DNA of 23,489 nt from Planctomycetota bacterium (lineage in GTDB: Bacteria > Planctomycetota > GCA-002687715 > DRQF01): assembly GCA_015485455.1 (NCBI GenBank), contig WFTN01000005.1, forward strand, positions 1 to 23,489, read 5' to 3'. The position numbers were made by a program, and so were the translations under genes. Position 1 is the first letter of the stretch, and each line of letters opens with the position of its first letter. The notes under the pieces are model-generated. The model was not told where the DNA came from. It worked only from the letters and a program-made list of their open reading frames with translations, and searched no databases. Shown piece after piece: positions 2,429 to 8,958 of the stretch.

Positions 2429-4954
2429 ATGGAATCTGGAGATCAGAAGAAAAGCCGGCTGACAATTGATGAGCAAACCGGTTCATTCTTCATGGATGGT
2501 TTGACCTATGCCCCCGGGGCTGGCAAGAACGCCGAGATTGCCCTACCCGAACCAACGGATGAATTTTGTTTCATCCGTGTTTTGGGAGCCGGCGGTATGG
2601 GGGTTGTCTTCGAAGCCGAAGAAACCCGCACAGGTCGCCGCGTTGCCCTCAAGGTCATCGCACCTCGACTGAGCCCATCCCAAGATGTTCTCGATCGTTT
2701 TCAACAAGAAGCTCGTGCCAGTGCTTCCCTCTCACATGATCATTGTGTCTTTGTCTATGGGGCCTATCAGGTCCACAATAACCCAGCGATCGCCATGGAG
2801 CTGATGAGTGGCGAGACTTTGGATGATCGAATCAAGAGCAAGAAGAAAATCTCCATTCTGCAAGCAGTCAAATGGACGCACCAAATGCTCGAAGGGCTGT
2901 CTTCGGCCCACGAGTCCAACTTGATCCACCGGGACATCAAACCCTCCAACATTTTCATGGCCGCCAACAACACGGTGAAAGTTGGCGACTTTGGCTTGAC
3001 CCAATCAAACACGGAAGACTTATCCCAGTCTCAAAGTGGTGTTTTCATGGGATCTCCTCTTTTTGCCAGTCCAGAACAAGTACGTGGCTACCAACTGGAC
3101 CATAGATCAGACCTTTATTCCGTTGGTGCCACCCTCTATGCCCTCCTATCTGGCTCTGCGCCTCATACATCGACCACGATCGGCGACCTTTTTGCCAAGA
3201 TCGCAACAGAAGATGCACCTTCATTGCGAACGGTTCGCCGGAGGGTCCCCAAAGACCTAGAAGCCATCGTCTTCAAAGCCTTGGCAAAAAAACCAGAAGA
3301 CCGCTTTGACGACTGTGCGGCCTTTCAGCAGGCTCTTGCGCCATTCTTGAGAGCCAGAGGCGGGACACCTCAATTGTCTTCACGAATCGCAGCTTACTGC
3401 ATCGACACCTTGGTTTTCTTGATCCCCATCGCCGCCCTCGCAATAGCGCAAGACCTCCTTGCGCACAGTGGGAGTGAATTTTCCATCTCCTTGTCCATGG
3501 AAACCACCCGCACCTCGGCTCGGTTCATATTCGCCCTTCACTTCGTCGTCATCGAAGGACGATACGGCGCCAGCTTGGGCAAGCGCATCTTGGGTCTCAG
3601 GGTTGTCACGATGTCTGGCGATCGCCCGGGAATACGGCGAGCATTCCTGCGGTATCTCATATTCGATCTTGACTTCCTCATGTCTTTTCTTGGCCTGAAG
3701 AGCAGCTTCTGGGGTTGGATCTGGTTTGCTGCCCTCTTCAGTACAGCGAGCAGGCGAAGCGGACGACGAGGCCTCCATGAACGGGTAAGCGGAACCCGCG
3801 TCATCGAGGTTAACGAAACTTTCTTCAAGAGGAGCCGGGCCAGGGACGTCCTGGATCCGAAAAGAAACACCAGTGAGCTCCCTCAGGGCTCTTGCGGTCC
3901 CTATCAACTCTTAGATCAGCTCCATGAGACGAACCAAGGCGATTTGTGGTTAGGCCGGGATGAGAAGCTCGGAAGAGATGTCTGGATTCTGAGTAATTCT
4001 CAGGAATTCTTCGTCGGTGACGACACCAACAGCAATCTCCATTTCCTCGACCGGATCGAAGACTCAAATGGTGTCCACCGAGTCTTCGAAGCACCAGGGG
4101 GAGCGCCACTTCTGGAGTATGTAACAGCCAATCGAACCTTGCCATGGCCAATTGCCAGGCAAGTCATCTTAGATCTCATCGGCATCCTCAGTGACTCCAA
4201 CAAACACCCAATCATGGAGCAGGTGTGGATCGACCGCAAAGGAAAACTACGATTGCTGCCTTTTTGCTTGTCACAAGAGGAATACCACAGCACAGAATCG
4301 TTCGCCCCGGATGTTTGCCGCGCTATATTTGGCCTCAACGATGACAAGGGGCGACTGCCGGAAGACATCCCTCAAGAAGCCAGGTCCTCAATTCATACCC
4401 TCATCAGCAACGACTTTCATCACTCTAACCTCAAGGAGATGCGCAAGGACATTGATGCGACTGACTCAAACCCACGTTTCGTCCCCCGAGCCACCCGCAT
4501 GATGCAATTAGCATTCTCATCTCTTGTCCCCATCGCTTCCGCTATTGCTTGGTTGGTCTTTGAATTCGACCAGGCTTTAGGCAGCGAGATAAGCAACCCG
4601 GAAGACCTGACCGGATTTCAGTATGGGGCCCTGTGTATTCTTCTACCGGGAATTATCTCAGCCTACGCTTTTCGCGGTAGCTTAGGGTTCACGGTATTTT
4701 CTATTCGTATTGTCGACAGTCAGGCTCACCGCATTTCCCGGTTCCGATGTGCCTATCGCGCTGCTCTCACCTGGCTGCCTCTCGTGCTCATACCATTAAG
4801 CAACCATGTGACCATCATGTTCCTCGAAGAAAGATGGGTGAGCTACAGCAACGTGCTGCTCTTTGTTCTCTTCGTACTCATTGGTTGCTCCAGTATCTGG
4901 ACTCCTTCGCGGTCAAGAATCGACGCGATCTTAGGAACCAACCTGGTGCGTTAG
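2429..4954 (+). CDS. Serine/threonine protein kinase with duplicated kinase-RDD architecture (second kinase domain degenerate)
   Basis: Residues 47-308 form a Hanks-type kinase with every key motif: glycine loop GAGGMG (53-58), Lys75, HRD 167-169 with KPSN, DFG 187-189 and SPE 214-216. Residues 316-460 form an RDD membrane domain (Arg319, Asp326, GASLGKRILGLRVV at 380-393, LHERVSGT at 449-456). The protein then repeats itself. Residues 490-680 resemble a kinase (YQLLDQL, then DLWLGRDEKLGRDVWI at 505-520) but lack the glycine loop, the lysine (Leu521), the HRD, and the DFG (Leu610-Pro611-Phe612-Cys613). Residues 690-841 are a worn RDD copy (GSLGFTVFSIRIV at 750-762). The kinase parts should face the cytoplasm and the hydrophobic segments anchor the protein. 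The active kinase probably signals to unknown targets, with the pseudokinase as scaffold or allosteric partner. The start at 2429 is the first ATG in frame after the terminator; 2492 is an alternative. Neither has a Shine-Dalgarno sequence. Confidence 0.93.
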   Translation: MESGDQKKSRLTIDEQTGSFFMDGLTYAPGAGKNAEIALPEPTDEFCFIRVLGAGGMGVVFEAEETRTGRRVALKVIAPRLSPSQDVLDRFQQEARASASLSHDHCVFVYGAYQVHNNPAIAMELMSGETLDDRIKSKKKISILQAVKWTHQMLEGLSSAHESNLIHRDIKPSNIFMAANNTVKVGDFGLTQSNTEDLSQSQSGVFMGSPLFASPEQVRGYQLDHRSDLYSVGATLYALLSGSAPHTSTTIGDLFAKIATEDAPSLRTVRRRVPKDLEAIVFKALAKKPEDRFDDCAAFQQALAPFLRARGGTPQLSSRIAAYCIDTLVFLIPIAALAIAQDLLAHSGSEFSISLSMETTRTSARFIFALHFVVIEGRYGASLGKRILGLRVVTMSGDRPGIRRAFLRYLIFDLDFLMSFLGLKSSFWGWIWFAALFSTASRRSGRRGLHERVSGTRVIEVNETFFKRSRARDVLDPKRNTSELPQGSCGPYQLLDQLHETNQGDLWLGRDEKLGRDVWILSNSQEFFVGDDTNSNLHFLDRIEDSNGVHRVFEAPGGAPLLEYVTANRTLPWPIARQVILDLIGILSDSNKHPIMEQVWIDRKGKLRLLPFCLSQEEYHSTESFAPDVCRAIFGLNDDKGRLPEDIPQEARSSIHTLISNDFHHSNLKEMRKDIDATDSNPRFVPRATRMMQLAFSSLVPIASAIAWLVFEFDQALGSEISNPEDLTGFQYGALCILLPGIISAYAFRGSLGFTVFSIRIVDSQAHRISRFRCAYRAALTWLPLVLIPLSNHVTIMFLEERWVSYSNVLLFVLFVLIGCSSIWTPSRSRIDAILGTNLVR

Positions 4955-5167: not shown

Positions 5168-6403
5168 ATGAACAACTTCAAAGCCGTTTTCGTCGCCGTC
5201 TTCCTGGGCGCCGCTATCATCGTCGCAGCCGTCATCGTGAACTCCAAACGACCGACTCCACGAGCCGGTTACGAAAACGCCAGCTTCACCAAGGCAACGG
5301 GAAAATGTGCCGCCTGTCACCGCCGGGAAACGGCAGCGGTGGTCGCCCAATACGAATCGAGTAAGCATGCCGCCGTCGGAGTCACATGCTTAGAATGCCA
5401 CAGCGCCGCTGAAGGCCAACAGCCAGTCGACCACAAGGGCTTCGCGATCACCACCAATCCAACTTCCAAGAACTGCGCCCAATGCCATAGCACGGAGTAC
5501 GAGCAATTCGCCCGAAGCCGCCACGCAGCTTCCACCTGGGCCGCAGTCAGAGGCACCGCTGACTTCACCGCAGAGCAAATCGCCCACGGTGAAGAATATC
5601 ACAAGGGAATGGTGGACCGCCCGGCTAACGCTTTGGCCATGTTGGAAGGAAAAGGGGCCATCGAAGCTGGTTGCGCTCGATGCCACGCCATTGGTCAACC
5701 AAATCCAGATGGATCCATAGGCACATGTACGGAATGTCATTCCCGCCACGCGGCCAGTGTCGAATTGGCTCGGCAACCAGCAACATGCGGCCAATGTCAT
5801 ATGGGTCCCGACCATTCCCAGCTCGAAATCTACAACGAATCGAAGCACGGTGCTCTTTTTGCCATGCAGCGTCACACGTTCAATATGACCGCCAAGTCAA
5901 AAGAGCTCACTTCATCCGATATGCCCGTACCCACTTGCGCCACCTGTCATATGAGCGGTATGGACGGCCTGAAAGTCACCCATGACACGACAGAACGTCT
6001 CTCCTGGACCCTCTACGCCCCCGTTTCACAAAAGCGCCCCAACTTTCAACGTGGCCAAGATGAAATGAAAGAAACTTGCCTGAAATGTCACGCCCAAGGG
6101 GGAATCGAAAAGATCTACGCCGAAGCAGAAACAGTAGTCAAAGCCACCAATAAGAAGGTCATTGCCATGAAAAAACTAATGCAAGACCTCCGTGCCGAAG
6201 GATTATTAACACCAGAACCCTTTGATCAGCCAATCGACTTCCTCGAATTCGACTTTTGGCATTATTATGGACGAACAGCGAAACATGGCGCCTTCATGGG
6301 TGGCGCAGATTTCGTCCAATGGCATGGTAACTACGAGCTGCTCAAGATCATGGCTGAGATGGAAGAAATCGCTCACCAACTGCGGAAGAACAAGGGTAAA
6401 TAG
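5168..6403 (+). CDS. Octahaem cytochrome c, hydroxylamine oxidoreductase (HAO) family
   Basis: The protein has eight CXXCH haem sites, at residues 47, 74, 103, 169, 187, 207, 257 and 304. The spacing and the signature around haems 4-6 (CARCHAIG, DGSIGTCTECHSRH, CGQCHMGPDH, then YNESKHG at 222-228) are those of HAO and hydrazine dehydrogenase relatives. A single hydrophobic segment at about 6-24 exports the protein and may stay as an anchor. At 411 residues it is shorter than classical HAO: it lacks the C-terminal tail and ends 29 residues after the conserved-looking block that begins at Trp364 (WHYYGR). In known oxidative HAO a tyrosine cross-links to the catalytic P460 haem. My alignment places it at Phe382 here (ADFVQWHG), which would fit the reductive branch of the family that acts on nitrite, hydroxylamine or NO. 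The substrate is therefore inferred, not shown. The gene forms an operon with the membrane protein 8 bases downstream. Confidence 0.93.
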   Translation: MNNFKAVFVAVFLGAAIIVAAVIVNSKRPTPRAGYENASFTKATGKCAACHRRETAAVVAQYESSKHAAVGVTCLECHSAAEGQQPVDHKGFAITTNPTSKNCAQCHSTEYEQFARSRHAASTWAAVRGTADFTAEQIAHGEEYHKGMVDRPANALAMLEGKGAIEAGCARCHAIGQPNPDGSIGTCTECHSRHAASVELARQPATCGQCHMGPDHSQLEIYNESKHGALFAMQRHTFNMTAKSKELTSSDMPVPTCATCHMSGMDGLKVTHDTTERLSWTLYAPVSQKRPNFQRGQDEMKETCLKCHAQGGIEKIYAEAETVVKATNKKVIAMKKLMQDLRAEGLLTPEPFDQPIDFLEFDFWHYYGRTAKHGAFMGGADFVQWHGNYELLKIMAEMEEIAHQLRKNKGK

Positions 6404-6411
6404 GCTGCCCC

Positions 6412-7245
6412 ATGACCCACCCAAAAACAGCTGGGGCTCAAGACGTTCCCGCATTCCGCCAGCGGATGCTCGAGTGCTTTGCCATCGGAAACCTCGCTTT
6501 CCTGGCCGTCGACATTTACTTGGCTCATGCCTATAACGATTTCGCTCTCAAGTCCGAGTGGATTCCGTTTGTGTTCTCAATCCTTGGTTCTATCGCTCTC
6601 TTGCCTCAACTCTTGAGATCATTCCGAGGTGGGTCGTTTTCGAGGAGAATGGGGATCGCCGTTGGATCCCTTTCGATCTTGGTGGGATTCGTCGGTTTCC
6701 TTTTTCATTTGGAGAGCCAATTCTTGATCCTCGGCAACGTCATGAGTTTGGTGTATTCCGCTCCTTTGGCCGCCCCGCTGGCCTATTGCGGTATTGGCAT
6801 GTTGCTTCTTCTCAATCGCCTTGAAGTCGAAAATCAGGACTGGGGAGCTTGGGTCGTTTTCCTAGCTGCGGGAGGGTTCTTTGGCAATTTTGCTTTGACG
6901 TTGCTGGATCATGCCCAGAATGGATTCGCTCATGAAAGTGAATGGCTCGCAGTTGGGTCCTCTGCTTTCGCCTGGTCTTTCCTCATTGTCGCCTCAACGC
7001 CATGGGCCAACGCCACACTGCTGAAGGCCACCGCATGGATTATGGCTCTACAAATTATTGTGGGGACATTAGGGGCATTTCTGCACTTCCGAGCCAACGC
7101 AAACGGAGTGTCCGAGTCGATCTGGGACAATTTCGTCTACGGAGCGCCATTCTTCGCCCCTCTGCTCATGTGCGACATGGCAATTCTTGGACTCCTCGGC
7201 CTATACGACCGAGGAGCCAACAAGAACCTGACACCCACGTCTTAA
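6412..7245 (+). CDS. Eight-helix membrane protein with internal duplication, partner of the octahaem cytochrome
   Basis: I do not recognise this family. The 277-residue protein is very hydrophobic, with about eight predicted membrane helices and a soluble start (1-18). It consists of two homologous halves, about 20-138 and 152-266. Matched positions are His39/His167, Glu49-Trp50/Glu177-Trp178, His99/His225, Tyr115/Tyr243, the AP pairs at 117 and 121/245 and 249, and Cys126/Cys254. Histidines repeated in both halves of a helical bundle suggest b-haem or metal ligands. The gene starts 8 bases after the cytochrome stop, so the two are almost surely co-transcribed. A sensible but unproven role is a membrane quinol or haem module that passes electrons to or from the HAO-like cytochrome on the outer face of the membrane. 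It is not the NrfH or cytochrome cM552 type of quinol oxidase, since it has no CXXCH. Confidence 0.88.
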   Translation: MTHPKTAGAQDVPAFRQRMLECFAIGNLAFLAVDIYLAHAYNDFALKSEWIPFVFSILGSIALLPQLLRSFRGGSFSRRMGIAVGSLSILVGFVGFLFHLESQFLILGNVMSLVYSAPLAAPLAYCGIGMLLLLNRLEVENQDWGAWVVFLAAGGFFGNFALTLLDHAQNGFAHESEWLAVGSSAFAWSFLIVASTPWANATLLKATAWIMALQIIVGTLGAFLHFRANANGVSESIWDNFVYGAPFFAPLLMCDMAILGLLGLYDRGANKNLTPTS

Positions 7246-7272: not shown

Positions 7273-8958
7273 TTAGAAGACAGAAATCTGGGCACCCTGG
7301 GATGCGGAGAAGGTCCAGGCAGCGGGACTACTTGGATCGTAGACCCACCATTGAACGTAACGAACGAAACCAGCCAAACTGGGTAAGTTGGGAATTGGGA
7401 AATGGAGAGTCGCGACGCCATCACCGGCACCAACACCCCCAGTCGCCGTAGTTACATAACCAAAGCTTGGGTCATTGACGTCCACCGCAATAGGAACTCC
7501 CCCAAACTGTGTTCCTGGAGCAGCAGGGACATCTGAGTAGAGCAAATAAGCTTGAGTACCCCCGCGCGCATTGGTGACACCAAGGCGATAGTCGATGTTT
7601 CCGACGTTGGATGGATCAAAAGCTAACATCACCGGTGAGAATCCTCCCAAGCCCGGAAGAGCTGGTCCGAAAGTCGGAGACCCTAAGGGCTGAACTTCGC
7701 TATGAAGAGTAGGACGGTCAAAGGGAAACGTAGCTTGGGCAACACGAGGGTCCGTAAGGGCATTGGCCAAGAAATCCACCAATGCTGCTTGAGAAGCCAA
7801 AGGCACGCTTGTGACCGCCATCAACGGATCGATGTTGGTGACAAAATCTCCACCCCGATCATAGAACGCCAAGACTTGGAATAAATCCGTGAACTGACCG
7901 TTGTGCATGAATTGGCTCTTGAGGCCAATATTACGCAAGGTCGGCGTCTTGAACTTACCGAGATCGGAAGGGTTGCCAGTCACATTCATGCGCCCCGGAT
8001 CCTCTGCGGGAGGTCGCACTCCGATGTTGCGGAAGCCGTGATCTGTCGTCAAAGCACCACTATGGCAAATGGAGCAGTTACCCGTTGTGAGATATGTCAT
8101 CATCCCCTGGCGTTGAGACAAGGTCATGGCATTGGTATTTCCGGCCAAGAACTGATCAAACGGAGTTTGATCCGAAATCAGTGTTCTTTGGTAAGTCGCA
8201 ATAGCCATGGCAATTTTGGCAGCAGTAATTTGGTTGCTACCAAAGGCAGCTTGGAAGAGACTTGGATAGTCTGGATTTAAGGTCAAAGCCGCGGCCATAT
8301 CAGCAGGCACATTGCTGGCTAGTTTAAGTGGGGTGACCAAGGCAAGCTTCGCCACAATCTCTGGCCAGTTCCGCATGTCATGAGCCATTTCGGCGCCGGA
8401 CAATGGCGGCCCTACAGCTTGGCTTTCCAACGCTGCCCCAGAAGGCAAGACGGTCACTCCTGTTTGGGGGTCAACAAAGTCATTCGTCGCCCGACCATCC
8501 CAAAAGAGAACAGGAGCAAAGGCAGCATTGATCATTGTGGGTGTTGTGCGCCCAGTCACTTGAGGAAACAAGGCAAAGGCAGGATCGATAACGAAGTTGT
8601 TGTTGACATCTGCTCGGCGGACACCCGGAGAACCGAAGACGTCGTCCGCTGTTCCGAAAGATCCATCCGCACCTGGGTTCACACCGACACGAGGATCAAC
8701 ACCTCCGACTCCAGGACGATGGCAGGTTCCGCAAGCCATGCGGTTGTCGCTGGACATCTGTTCATCCCAGAAGAGAATTTTACCAAGAACAGCTTTTTGA
8801 GCTGTGATCGGATTGCCTGCAGGAACGACCAATGCTGGCAAAGGCGCGATGGGAGGTCCTCCGCCACCAGGGCCAGGCCCAATTTGAGACCAAGCCGGGG
8901 TAGACAAGACAAGAACAAGCAAGAACAGACAGGAAGTCACTTGTTTCAAAGCGCGCAT
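7273..8958 (-). CDS. Secreted di-haem cytochrome c peroxidase/MauG-family protein with C-terminal beta domain
   Basis: A signal peptide (1-24, ending PAWSQ) is followed by a proline/glycine-rich linker. The peroxidase core (about 45-430) carries two haem sites, CGTCH at 76-80 and CSICH at 295-299. It also has family blocks ILFWDEQMSSDNRMACGTC near haem 1, LGKFKTPTLRNI at 343-354 and MHNGQFTDL at 361-369. It probably reduces peroxide in the periplasm or oxidises an outside substrate; bacterial CCP and MauG cannot be told apart from sequence alone. Residues about 430-561 form an added beta-rich domain (GDGVATLHFPIPNLPSLAG, then QWWVYD and a final SQGAQISVF). This resembles the C-terminal domains of many secreted planctomycete proteins. 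A GGAG ribosome binding site lies 8 bases before the ATG. The gene is convergent with the membrane protein at 6412, with only 27 bases between them. Confidence 0.92.
   Translation of the reverse strand: MRALKQVTSCLFLLVLVLSTPAWSQIGPGPGGGGPPIAPLPALVVPAGNPITAQKAVLGKILFWDEQMSSDNRMACGTCHRPGVGGVDPRVGVNPGADGSFGTADDVFGSPGVRRADVNNNFVIDPAFALFPQVTGRTTPTMINAAFAPVLFWDGRATNDFVDPQTGVTVLPSGAALESQAVGPPLSGAEMAHDMRNWPEIVAKLALVTPLKLASNVPADMAAALTLNPDYPSLFQAAFGSNQITAAKIAMAIATYQRTLISDQTPFDQFLAGNTNAMTLSQRQGMMTYLTTGNCSICHSGALTTDHGFRNIGVRPPAEDPGRMNVTGNPSDLGKFKTPTLRNIGLKSQFMHNGQFTDLFQVLAFYDRGGDFVTNIDPLMAVTSVPLASQAALVDFLANALTDPRVAQATFPFDRPTLHSEVQPLGSPTFGPALPGLGGFSPVMLAFDPSNVGNIDYRLGVTNARGGTQAYLLYSDVPAAPGTQFGGVPIAVDVNDPSFGYVTTATGGVGAGDGVATLHFPIPNLPSLAGFVRYVQWWVYDPSSPAAWTFSASQGAQISVF

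Follow-up and report, generated by a model that had tools for sequence, protein, structure and literature searches.

The gene pair at the locus

The stretch of DNA analysed here, called the window, consists of the 23,489 nucleotides of contig WFTN01000005.1 (assembly GCA_015485455.1) of a Planctomycetota bacterium. On its forward strand lie the two genes that are the subject of this study, an HAO-superfamily octahaem cytochrome and a membrane protein, here called P2, which is proposed to be its partner:

5168..6403, + strand: octahaem c-type cytochrome, 411 amino acids (aa), of a short HAO-superfamily clade and of reductive type by residue content (8 CXXCH, PF13447)
6412..7245, + strand: P2, membrane protein of 277 aa with eight transmembrane helices, from a family without a name; putative quinol dehydrogenase serving the cytochrome

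An earlier note on this DNA had described an eight-CXXCH protein of HAO type, followed after 8 bases by a polytopic protein without CXXCH, and the open reading frames (ORFs), the PF13447 match and AlphaFold2 modelling bear this description out. The cytochrome contains exactly eight CXXCH motifs and matches PF13447 at 97.8 bits (E 8.4e-28, the curated Pfam cut-off being 21.9 bits), which makes it an octahaem member of the HAO superfamily. Its sequence matches in the PDB are 4qo5 (E 6.2e-40) and Nitrosomonas HAO (about 2e-20), and with profiles the best PDB match is again 4qo5 (E 1.8e-47), with Nitrosomonas HAO at 2.2e-28. P2, which starts 8 bases after the stop codon of the cytochrome, has no CXXCH.

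Pairing of P2 and the cytochrome across genomes

The pair was searched for in 392 whole genomes, a sample of the phylum, in which only the best few candidates were scored per genome (at most 6 for P2 and at most 4 for the cytochrome), and absences are therefore uncertain. P2 is patchy in this sample. It was found in 13 of the 392 genomes, 12 times complete and once as a fragment, and the nearest relatives (G002-G011) were without a match. The fragment, in genome G001, is the last part of P2 only and lies right where a contig begins, with its neighbour out of view; the octahaem matches in that genome are weaker ones only. The cytochrome profile found HAO-superfamily matches in 145 of the 392 genomes, and the scores showed a break, with 12 matches at 532-779 bits and the next at 331 bits, in a genome without P2, and below. 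These 12 strong matches fall in exactly the 12 genomes with a complete P2. In each of the 12, P2 and the cytochrome are adjacent and on the same strand, with the cytochrome first, and when the most upstream start is taken they overlap or are at most 8 nucleotides apart in 11 loci and 219 nucleotides apart in one. Fisher's test of co-occurrence gave 5.6e-22 for the 392 genomes and 1.2e-16 for the 145 octahaem-bearing ones, with G001 counted as P2 without the cytochrome, values that are only indicative as the genomes are not independent. The pairing of P2 with the cytochrome is not due to chance, and it is both conserved and exclusive in the phylum sampled. The earlier note had suggested that the adjacencies be counted, and had put its idea at risk if P2 were not conserved beside HAO-like genes or belonged to a known family with an unrelated role; in the phylum sample P2 was beside the cytochrome in all 12 genomes where it is complete, and neither of the two outcomes was seen.

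Ten genes near the pair, from 8 of the 12 loci, were compared. Eight of them differ in function and two are without a family match, the functions in other genomes including a glycosidase, a universal stress protein, an AsnC-type regulator, a dicarboxylate symporter, TetR and EamA, among others. Since the flanking genes differ, the unit appears to be two genes. A scan for promoters and terminators gave nothing above shuffled sequences.

In a protein collection, 1,269 homologues of P2 were found at E up to 1e-3 (from 6,245 candidates). The names on them include Planctomycetota, Acidobacteriota, Poribacteria and Marinimicrobia, while the homologues of the cytochrome carry names such as KSB1, Myxococcota, Desulfobacterales and Poribacteria. 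Adjacency outside the sampled phylum is supported only indirectly, by a stand-in in which the longest-contig sizes of the top matches to P2 and to the cytochrome were compared (119 P2 values with 118 of 119 cytochrome values). Fourteen sizes were equal, whereas 120 control offsets gave 1.05 on average and never more than 5. In the plasmids searched, P2 was not found; three distant octahaem cytochromes, of 25-33% identity, were.

Anatomy of the membrane protein P2

The AlphaFold2 model of P2 has eight long and two short helices, with a mean predicted local distance difference test score (pLDDT) of 89.9 and a predicted template modelling score (pTM) of 0.88. When the N-terminal half was aligned with the C-terminal half by hhalign, the two were found to be homologous (E 9.7e-14, probability 98.1%). 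By its sequence, P2 is an internal duplication of a four-helix repeat, and each repeat carries two histidines:

6451..6810, + strand: repeat 1, residues 14-133 (hhalign of the N- against the C-terminal half)
6838..7194, + strand: repeat 2, residues about 143-261 (hhalign and repeat alignment)
6526..6528, + strand: His39, end of helix 1 (homologue alignment; helices from the AlphaFold2 model)
6706..6708, + strand: His99, end of helix 3, in GxxGxxxH (G92 and G95 invariant in 32/32)
6910..6912, + strand: His167, end of helix 5 (homologue alignment; helices from the AlphaFold2 model)
7084..7086, + strand: His225, late in helix 7, in GxxGxxxH (G218 and G221 invariant in 32/32)

All four histidines are invariant in 131 of 131 P2 sequences, namely the 120 best of the 1,269 homologues (the one in the window included) and 11 from other genomes. 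The repeated histidines mentioned in the earlier note are real, and the duplication gives them a pattern. In the same 131 sequences D34, D166, E177, Y115 and N27 are also invariant, and E49 is present in 128. An alignment of the repeats, made of 20 half-sequences of P2 from 10 of the 12 genomes, has N, D, H, G, H and two P invariant, and a Glu-Trp in at least 90% of the halves. The Glu-Trp, near the periplasmic surface, is reminiscent of the PEWY quinol-site motif of cytochrome b.

The four histidines come late in helices 1, 3, 5 and 7, towards their ends, and consequently lie on the same side of the membrane. Lysine and arginine are more numerous on the opposite side in all 131 sequences (mean 10.7 versus 3.0, with the helix limits taken from the AlphaFold2 model and the loops widened by four residues). 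Because that side carries more Lys and Arg, the positive-inside rule predicts that the histidine side is periplasmic, which is where the cytochrome is expected. Histidines on alternate helices, placed behind GxxGxxxH, are an arrangement that would accommodate a haem in each four-helix repeat, and the invariant pairs suggest putative b haem.

P2 has no Pfam or NCBIfam family over the cut-off and no credible sequence match in the PDB. The families with which it might be confused were compared one by one. It has no PF03264 match and lacks the c-haem motifs of NapC/NirT/NrfH. P2 does not match PF03916 (NrfD) or PF00033/PF13631 (cytochrome b), nor are these among the 25 families listed, of 29 matched by 32 of its homologues, and hhalign gave E 0.47 against one NrfD and E 0.24 against one cytochrome b. 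For HaoB the P2 profile gave E 0.5 against the Ruegeria protein, a single sequence on the HaoB side, and for CtaA/COX15 there was no PF02628 match and an hhalign E of 0.16 against 7 CtaA sequences. A structure search with the P2 model returned no fold that stands out; the best look-alike, 3d19, is named a metalloprotein, and the match scores close to what helical bundles reach by chance.

Some hits were rejected. Ceramidase (4 of the 32 members, best E 0.065) and HlyIII (1 of 32, E 0.1), both far below the curated cut-offs, hinted at the CREST hydrolases and were discarded as composition noise. SecE (2 of 32, with the best single match, E 0.00044) is likewise far below its curated cut-off and was taken as noise. 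A P2-like match over 28 residues in Microbulbifer was judged spurious, as profiles at E 1e-5 found no P2 or octahaem ORF at that locus. When a profile of the halves was searched, with a length window that near-full-length P2 proteins still passed, such proteins (248-268 aa) made up the best 120 of 426 matches, which is uninformative on single-repeat relatives. P2 is not described in the parts consulted of PMC10732223, PMC4429474, PMC5317091, PMC6896113, PMC10716430, PMC8840924, PMC12285233 and PMC12758564. The literature searched, with most subscription papers outside it, contains no account of P2, which is weak evidence of novelty.

The active site of the cytochrome

The cytochrome was aligned with HAO, and the following features were located:

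5171..5245, + strand: N-terminal transmembrane helix, residues 2-26 (AlphaFold2 helix 2-26; hydrophobic in nearly all rows of the family alignment)
5672..5686, + strand: haem 4 motif C169-A-R-C-H173 (profile alignment, 4fas/1fgj, with C229-H233 of Nitrosomonas HAO)
5810..5815, + strand: D215-H216, invariant in the family alignment (aligned with HAO D267-H268)
6317..6322, + strand: Q384-W385 at the position of HAO Y467, tyrosine absent (MAFFT column)

We take C229-H233 of Nitrosomonas HAO to be the motif of the catalytic P460 haem, D267-H268 to be its distal residues, and Y467 to be the tyrosine that is cross-linked to haem P460. As judged by alignment alone, the cytochrome has kept haem 4 as the catalytic haem together with the distal Asp-His. 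The column that holds tyrosine in the Ruegeria HAO and in a HOX-like protein falls on Q384, and it is Gln in all 30 rows of the family, next to an invariant Trp (W385). The C-terminal cross-link tyrosine of the oxidative HAO, HOX and HDH enzymes is thus absent from all 30 members aligned, and the sister octahaem enzymes likewise have no Tyr in this column. According to PMC12758564 (section 9), the tyrosine separates oxidative from reductive HAOs, and the reductive form is predicted for a large majority of non-anammox bacteria. In the part of PMC5317091 consulted, a missing tyrosine is cited in favour of epsilon-Hao as a nitrite reductase. It is because the tyrosine is absent, and because of the rule given in PMC12758564, that the cytochrome is read as a reductase. 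It is probably a reductive enzyme acting on nitrite, nitric oxide (NO) or hydroxylamine, a direction and a choice of substrates that we infer from its residues.

The AlphaFold2 model of the cytochrome, made with the haems omitted, is poor overall (pLDDT 65) and was not used for a structure search. The N-terminal helix is better modelled, with pLDDT values of 81 and 92 for residues 1-20, and in the model residues 2-26 are probably an uncleaved membrane anchor.

Partners of related octahaem cytochromes

To this pair 19 other octahaem loci were compared, 18 of the next-best in the phylum and one on contig C585 of the same genome. A known quinone module is the neighbour in 12 of them: cytochrome b in 4, two of these with a Rieske domain alongside, NrfD in 6 (C585 included) and NapC/NirT in 2. 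The other 7 are without an assigned neighbour, partly owing to the flank of 1.5 kb. P2 is at none of the 19 loci, and conversely the neighbours of the P2-linked cytochromes that were listed or scanned, which are not all of them, include no known quinone module. P2 occupies the place that a quinone-module subunit has in the related systems, and the case for its proposed role rests chiefly on this.

The earlier note had held that c-type quinone partners are the usual neighbours of HAO-type enzymes. This is too narrow, with cytochrome b (4) and NrfD (6) outnumbering NapC/NirT (2) at the loci of the phylum, and with haoB adjoining haoA in Ruegeria. The conclusion that it drew, a different electron-transfer module, survives in part. 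A module that joins an HAO-type enzyme to the membrane by way of an unrecognised protein is the likeliest reading, given the adjacency and the lack of a known family, but a partner without CXXCH is not itself strange. What is novel is the family of the partner.

The C585 locus (L033, 64-4389) encodes the second PF13447 octahaem protein of the genome, in the order tetrahaem, 4Fe-4S, NrfD, octahaem; the octahaem gene is followed by an ORF of 812 aa and another tetrahaem ORF. In another genome of the phylum (L052, 3008-4021, + strand) a molybdopterin oxidoreductase ORF follows a cytochrome b-octahaem pair. A more distant case is a plasmid of Desulfosarcina ovata (L064), where a NapC/NirT and octahaem cytochrome pair is beside norR and an NO reductase, an example of such modules sitting on plasmids. 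In one family of the phylum (f43) there are several octahaem paralogues, and one of these is close to anammox enzymes of solved structure. This family, together with names such as 'Planctomycetota bacterium' on close P2 homologues, points to Planctomycetota as the phylum sampled.

In a tree of the octahaem proteins, the 12 P2-linked cytochromes and 8 database relatives whose neighbourhood is unseen form one group, with a Shimodaira-Hasegawa-like approximate likelihood ratio (SH-aLRT) of 100 and a branch of 1.29. The tree was made in quick mode with no bootstrap; the HAO/HOX outgroup and one P2 row (L045) have long branches, and the tree carries a warning that long branches meet. It took 8 of 29 database members and left out the duplicate of the window (L035). 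The partner types cluster on this tree, needing 8 changes as compared to a mean of 20.2 when shuffled. The P2 label itself needed 5 changes, as database rows of unseen neighbourhood lie among the P2 rows. As to the other labels, L063 was called NrfD by position only, from a piece of 135 aa without a Pfam match, L059 and L061 were labelled before the tree and confirmed after it, and L054 was unlabelled in the tree and later found to have a NapC/NirT neighbour.

Genome context

On contig C397 of the same genome (L094, 3764-7798), NorR, over the NCBIfam cut-off, is divergent from a qNOR-type NO reductase of 796 aa (PF22085 and PF00115). Since NorR adjoins this reductase, the genome handles NO. 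Genes of the haem-copper oxidase superfamily (PF00115, NO reductases included) are present in all 12 pair-bearing genomes, and a copper nitrite reductase over the cut-off in none of the 12, with weaker matches in 5. NO reductase, oxidase-superfamily genes and no copper nitrite reductase over the cut-off fit a low-oxygen or detoxifying role, and the substrate is not pinpointed thereby.

A multicopper-oxidase-like protein is encoded on contig C516 of the same genome (L093, 5162-11123), with CopA and laccase below the cut-off and a weak NirK match. Its gene adjoins those of an outer-membrane-efflux-like protein and of a COX1-family protein of 795 aa without an NCBIfam match. In the window, the pair is preceded by a Ser/Thr protein kinase with RDD domains (2429-4954, + strand); the other loci scanned have different genes in the vicinity. 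The pair is followed, in convergent orientation, by a protein like MauG/di-haem cytochrome c peroxidase (7273-8958, - strand; PF03150, E 1.1e-40), a family that was not among the ten neighbours scanned in other genomes.

Proposed function and alternatives

We put the chance at roughly 0.5 that P2 acts as a quinol dehydrogenase, that it probably carries two b haems, and that it feeds a membrane-anchored reductive octahaem enzyme working on nitrite, NO or hydroxylamine. The two genes would then give a two-subunit membrane complex, with P2 in the cytoplasmic membrane, its cofactor side facing the periplasm, and the cytochrome anchored next to it through an N-terminal helix of its own. The two b haems of P2 would probably be held one per repeat, by H39/H99 and by H167/H225. 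Quinol would be oxidised by P2 on the periplasmic side, aided by the conserved Asp and the Glu-Trp, and the electrons would pass from the cofactors of P2 to the periplasmic octahaem chain. At the haem 4 site, without the HAO tyrosine, a nitrogen oxide (nitrite, NO or hydroxylamine) would be reduced. As quinol would be oxidised and the substrate reduced on one side of the membrane, the step would be electroneutral, like that of NrfHA.

It is conceivable, though unlikely, that P2 is the electron partner and that its four histidines bind metal ions, or quinone directly, the electrons of quinol going straight to the nearest c haem. The acidic residues beside the histidines of each repeat (D34 and E49; D166 and E177) would also fit a metal site, the best structural look-alike is named a metalloprotein, and NrfD partners carry no haem. 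On the other hand, that look-alike match is near chance, and histidines on alternate helices (1/3 and 5/7) with glycines at i-4 and i-7 (G95 and G92; G221 and G218) suit a flat porphyrin.

Another possibility, which we regard as improbable, is that the system runs in the oxidative direction, with the cytochrome oxidising hydroxylamine or NO and P2 reducing quinone in the manner of HAO and cM552. Membership of the HAO superfamily and the retained Asp-His agree with this, as do the oxidase-superfamily genes in the 12 host genomes, and some relatives of the cytochrome have database product names like 'hydroxylamine dehydrogenase' (others 'ammonia-forming cytochrome c nitrite reductase'). The Rieske/cytochrome b partners of the sister enzymes could work in either direction. 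Against it, the HAO tyrosine is absent from all 30 rows, two sister loci have partners of the NapC/NirT type, which is a quinol-oxidising family, and the more distant NapC-linked member adjoins norR and an NO reductase. There is a slim chance that P2 carries no electrons and instead helps with assembly or haem handling, or forms a substrate channel, since a dedicated, adjacent and closely spaced gene fits a maturation factor too and four periplasm-facing histidines could pass haem, but a quinone module holds the position of P2 at 12 of the 19 sister loci, and the P2-linked cytochromes have no known one among those of their neighbours that were listed or scanned.

More widely, P2 may found a family of di-haem b quinol dehydrogenases that are internally duplicated, face the periplasm and arose independently. 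It would add one more to the quinone modules recruited by HAO-fold enzymes, which include NapC/NrfH, NrfD and Rieske/cytochrome b. The pair may then be a widespread reductive nitrogen-oxide complex of oxidase-bearing bacteria in several phyla, to which some 'hao' or 'hydroxylamine dehydrogenase' labels in non-nitrifiers point. We hold this wider proposal tentatively, at somewhat less than even odds. HAO-type enzymes stand where the nitrogen cycle branches, and their wiring to the quinone pool bears on respiration, detoxification or nitrification. A conserved, exclusive and unnamed membrane partner with invariant histidine pairs makes a concrete candidate for a quinol dehydrogenase of a new type. 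Given the database names, functional surveys may count such cytochromes as nitrifiers or ammonifiers without evidence.

Comparison with known systems

The closest structure, 4qo5, which we take to be the octahaem cytochrome of Ignicoccus hospitalis, is like the cytochrome of the window in having no tyrosine at the HAO position, by our reading of the profile alignment, and differs from it in size, 521 as compared to 411 aa. The Ignicoccus cytochrome is called membrane-associated in the title of Parey et al. 2016. The close anammox relatives of 4qo5 (L067, E 2e-136; L068, L070, L072) are on a separate branch of the tree, and their distal His is not kept. The cytochrome b-, NrfD- and NapC-linked octahaem proteins share with that of the window the superfamily, a C-terminal signature like WH..GR.ARHGA.M..D...WHG and the position of the gene; they differ in the family of the partner and in their score to the P2-linked profile, at most 331 bits as compared to at least 532.

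Of the membrane partners, HaoB of Ruegeria pomeroyi (L065) also has no CXXCH and adjoins an octahaem gene, and it has no detectable homology to P2. The haem A synthase CtaA has eight transmembrane helices in a duplicated four-helix bundle, with one histidine pair per half. This architecture resembles that of P2, although homology could not be detected. NrfH and NapC carry c haems, whereas P2 is without CXXCH and has eight helices. In NrfHA and epsilon-HAO, a membrane partner feeds a periplasmic multihaem reductase, and this is our working analogy for P2 and its cytochrome.

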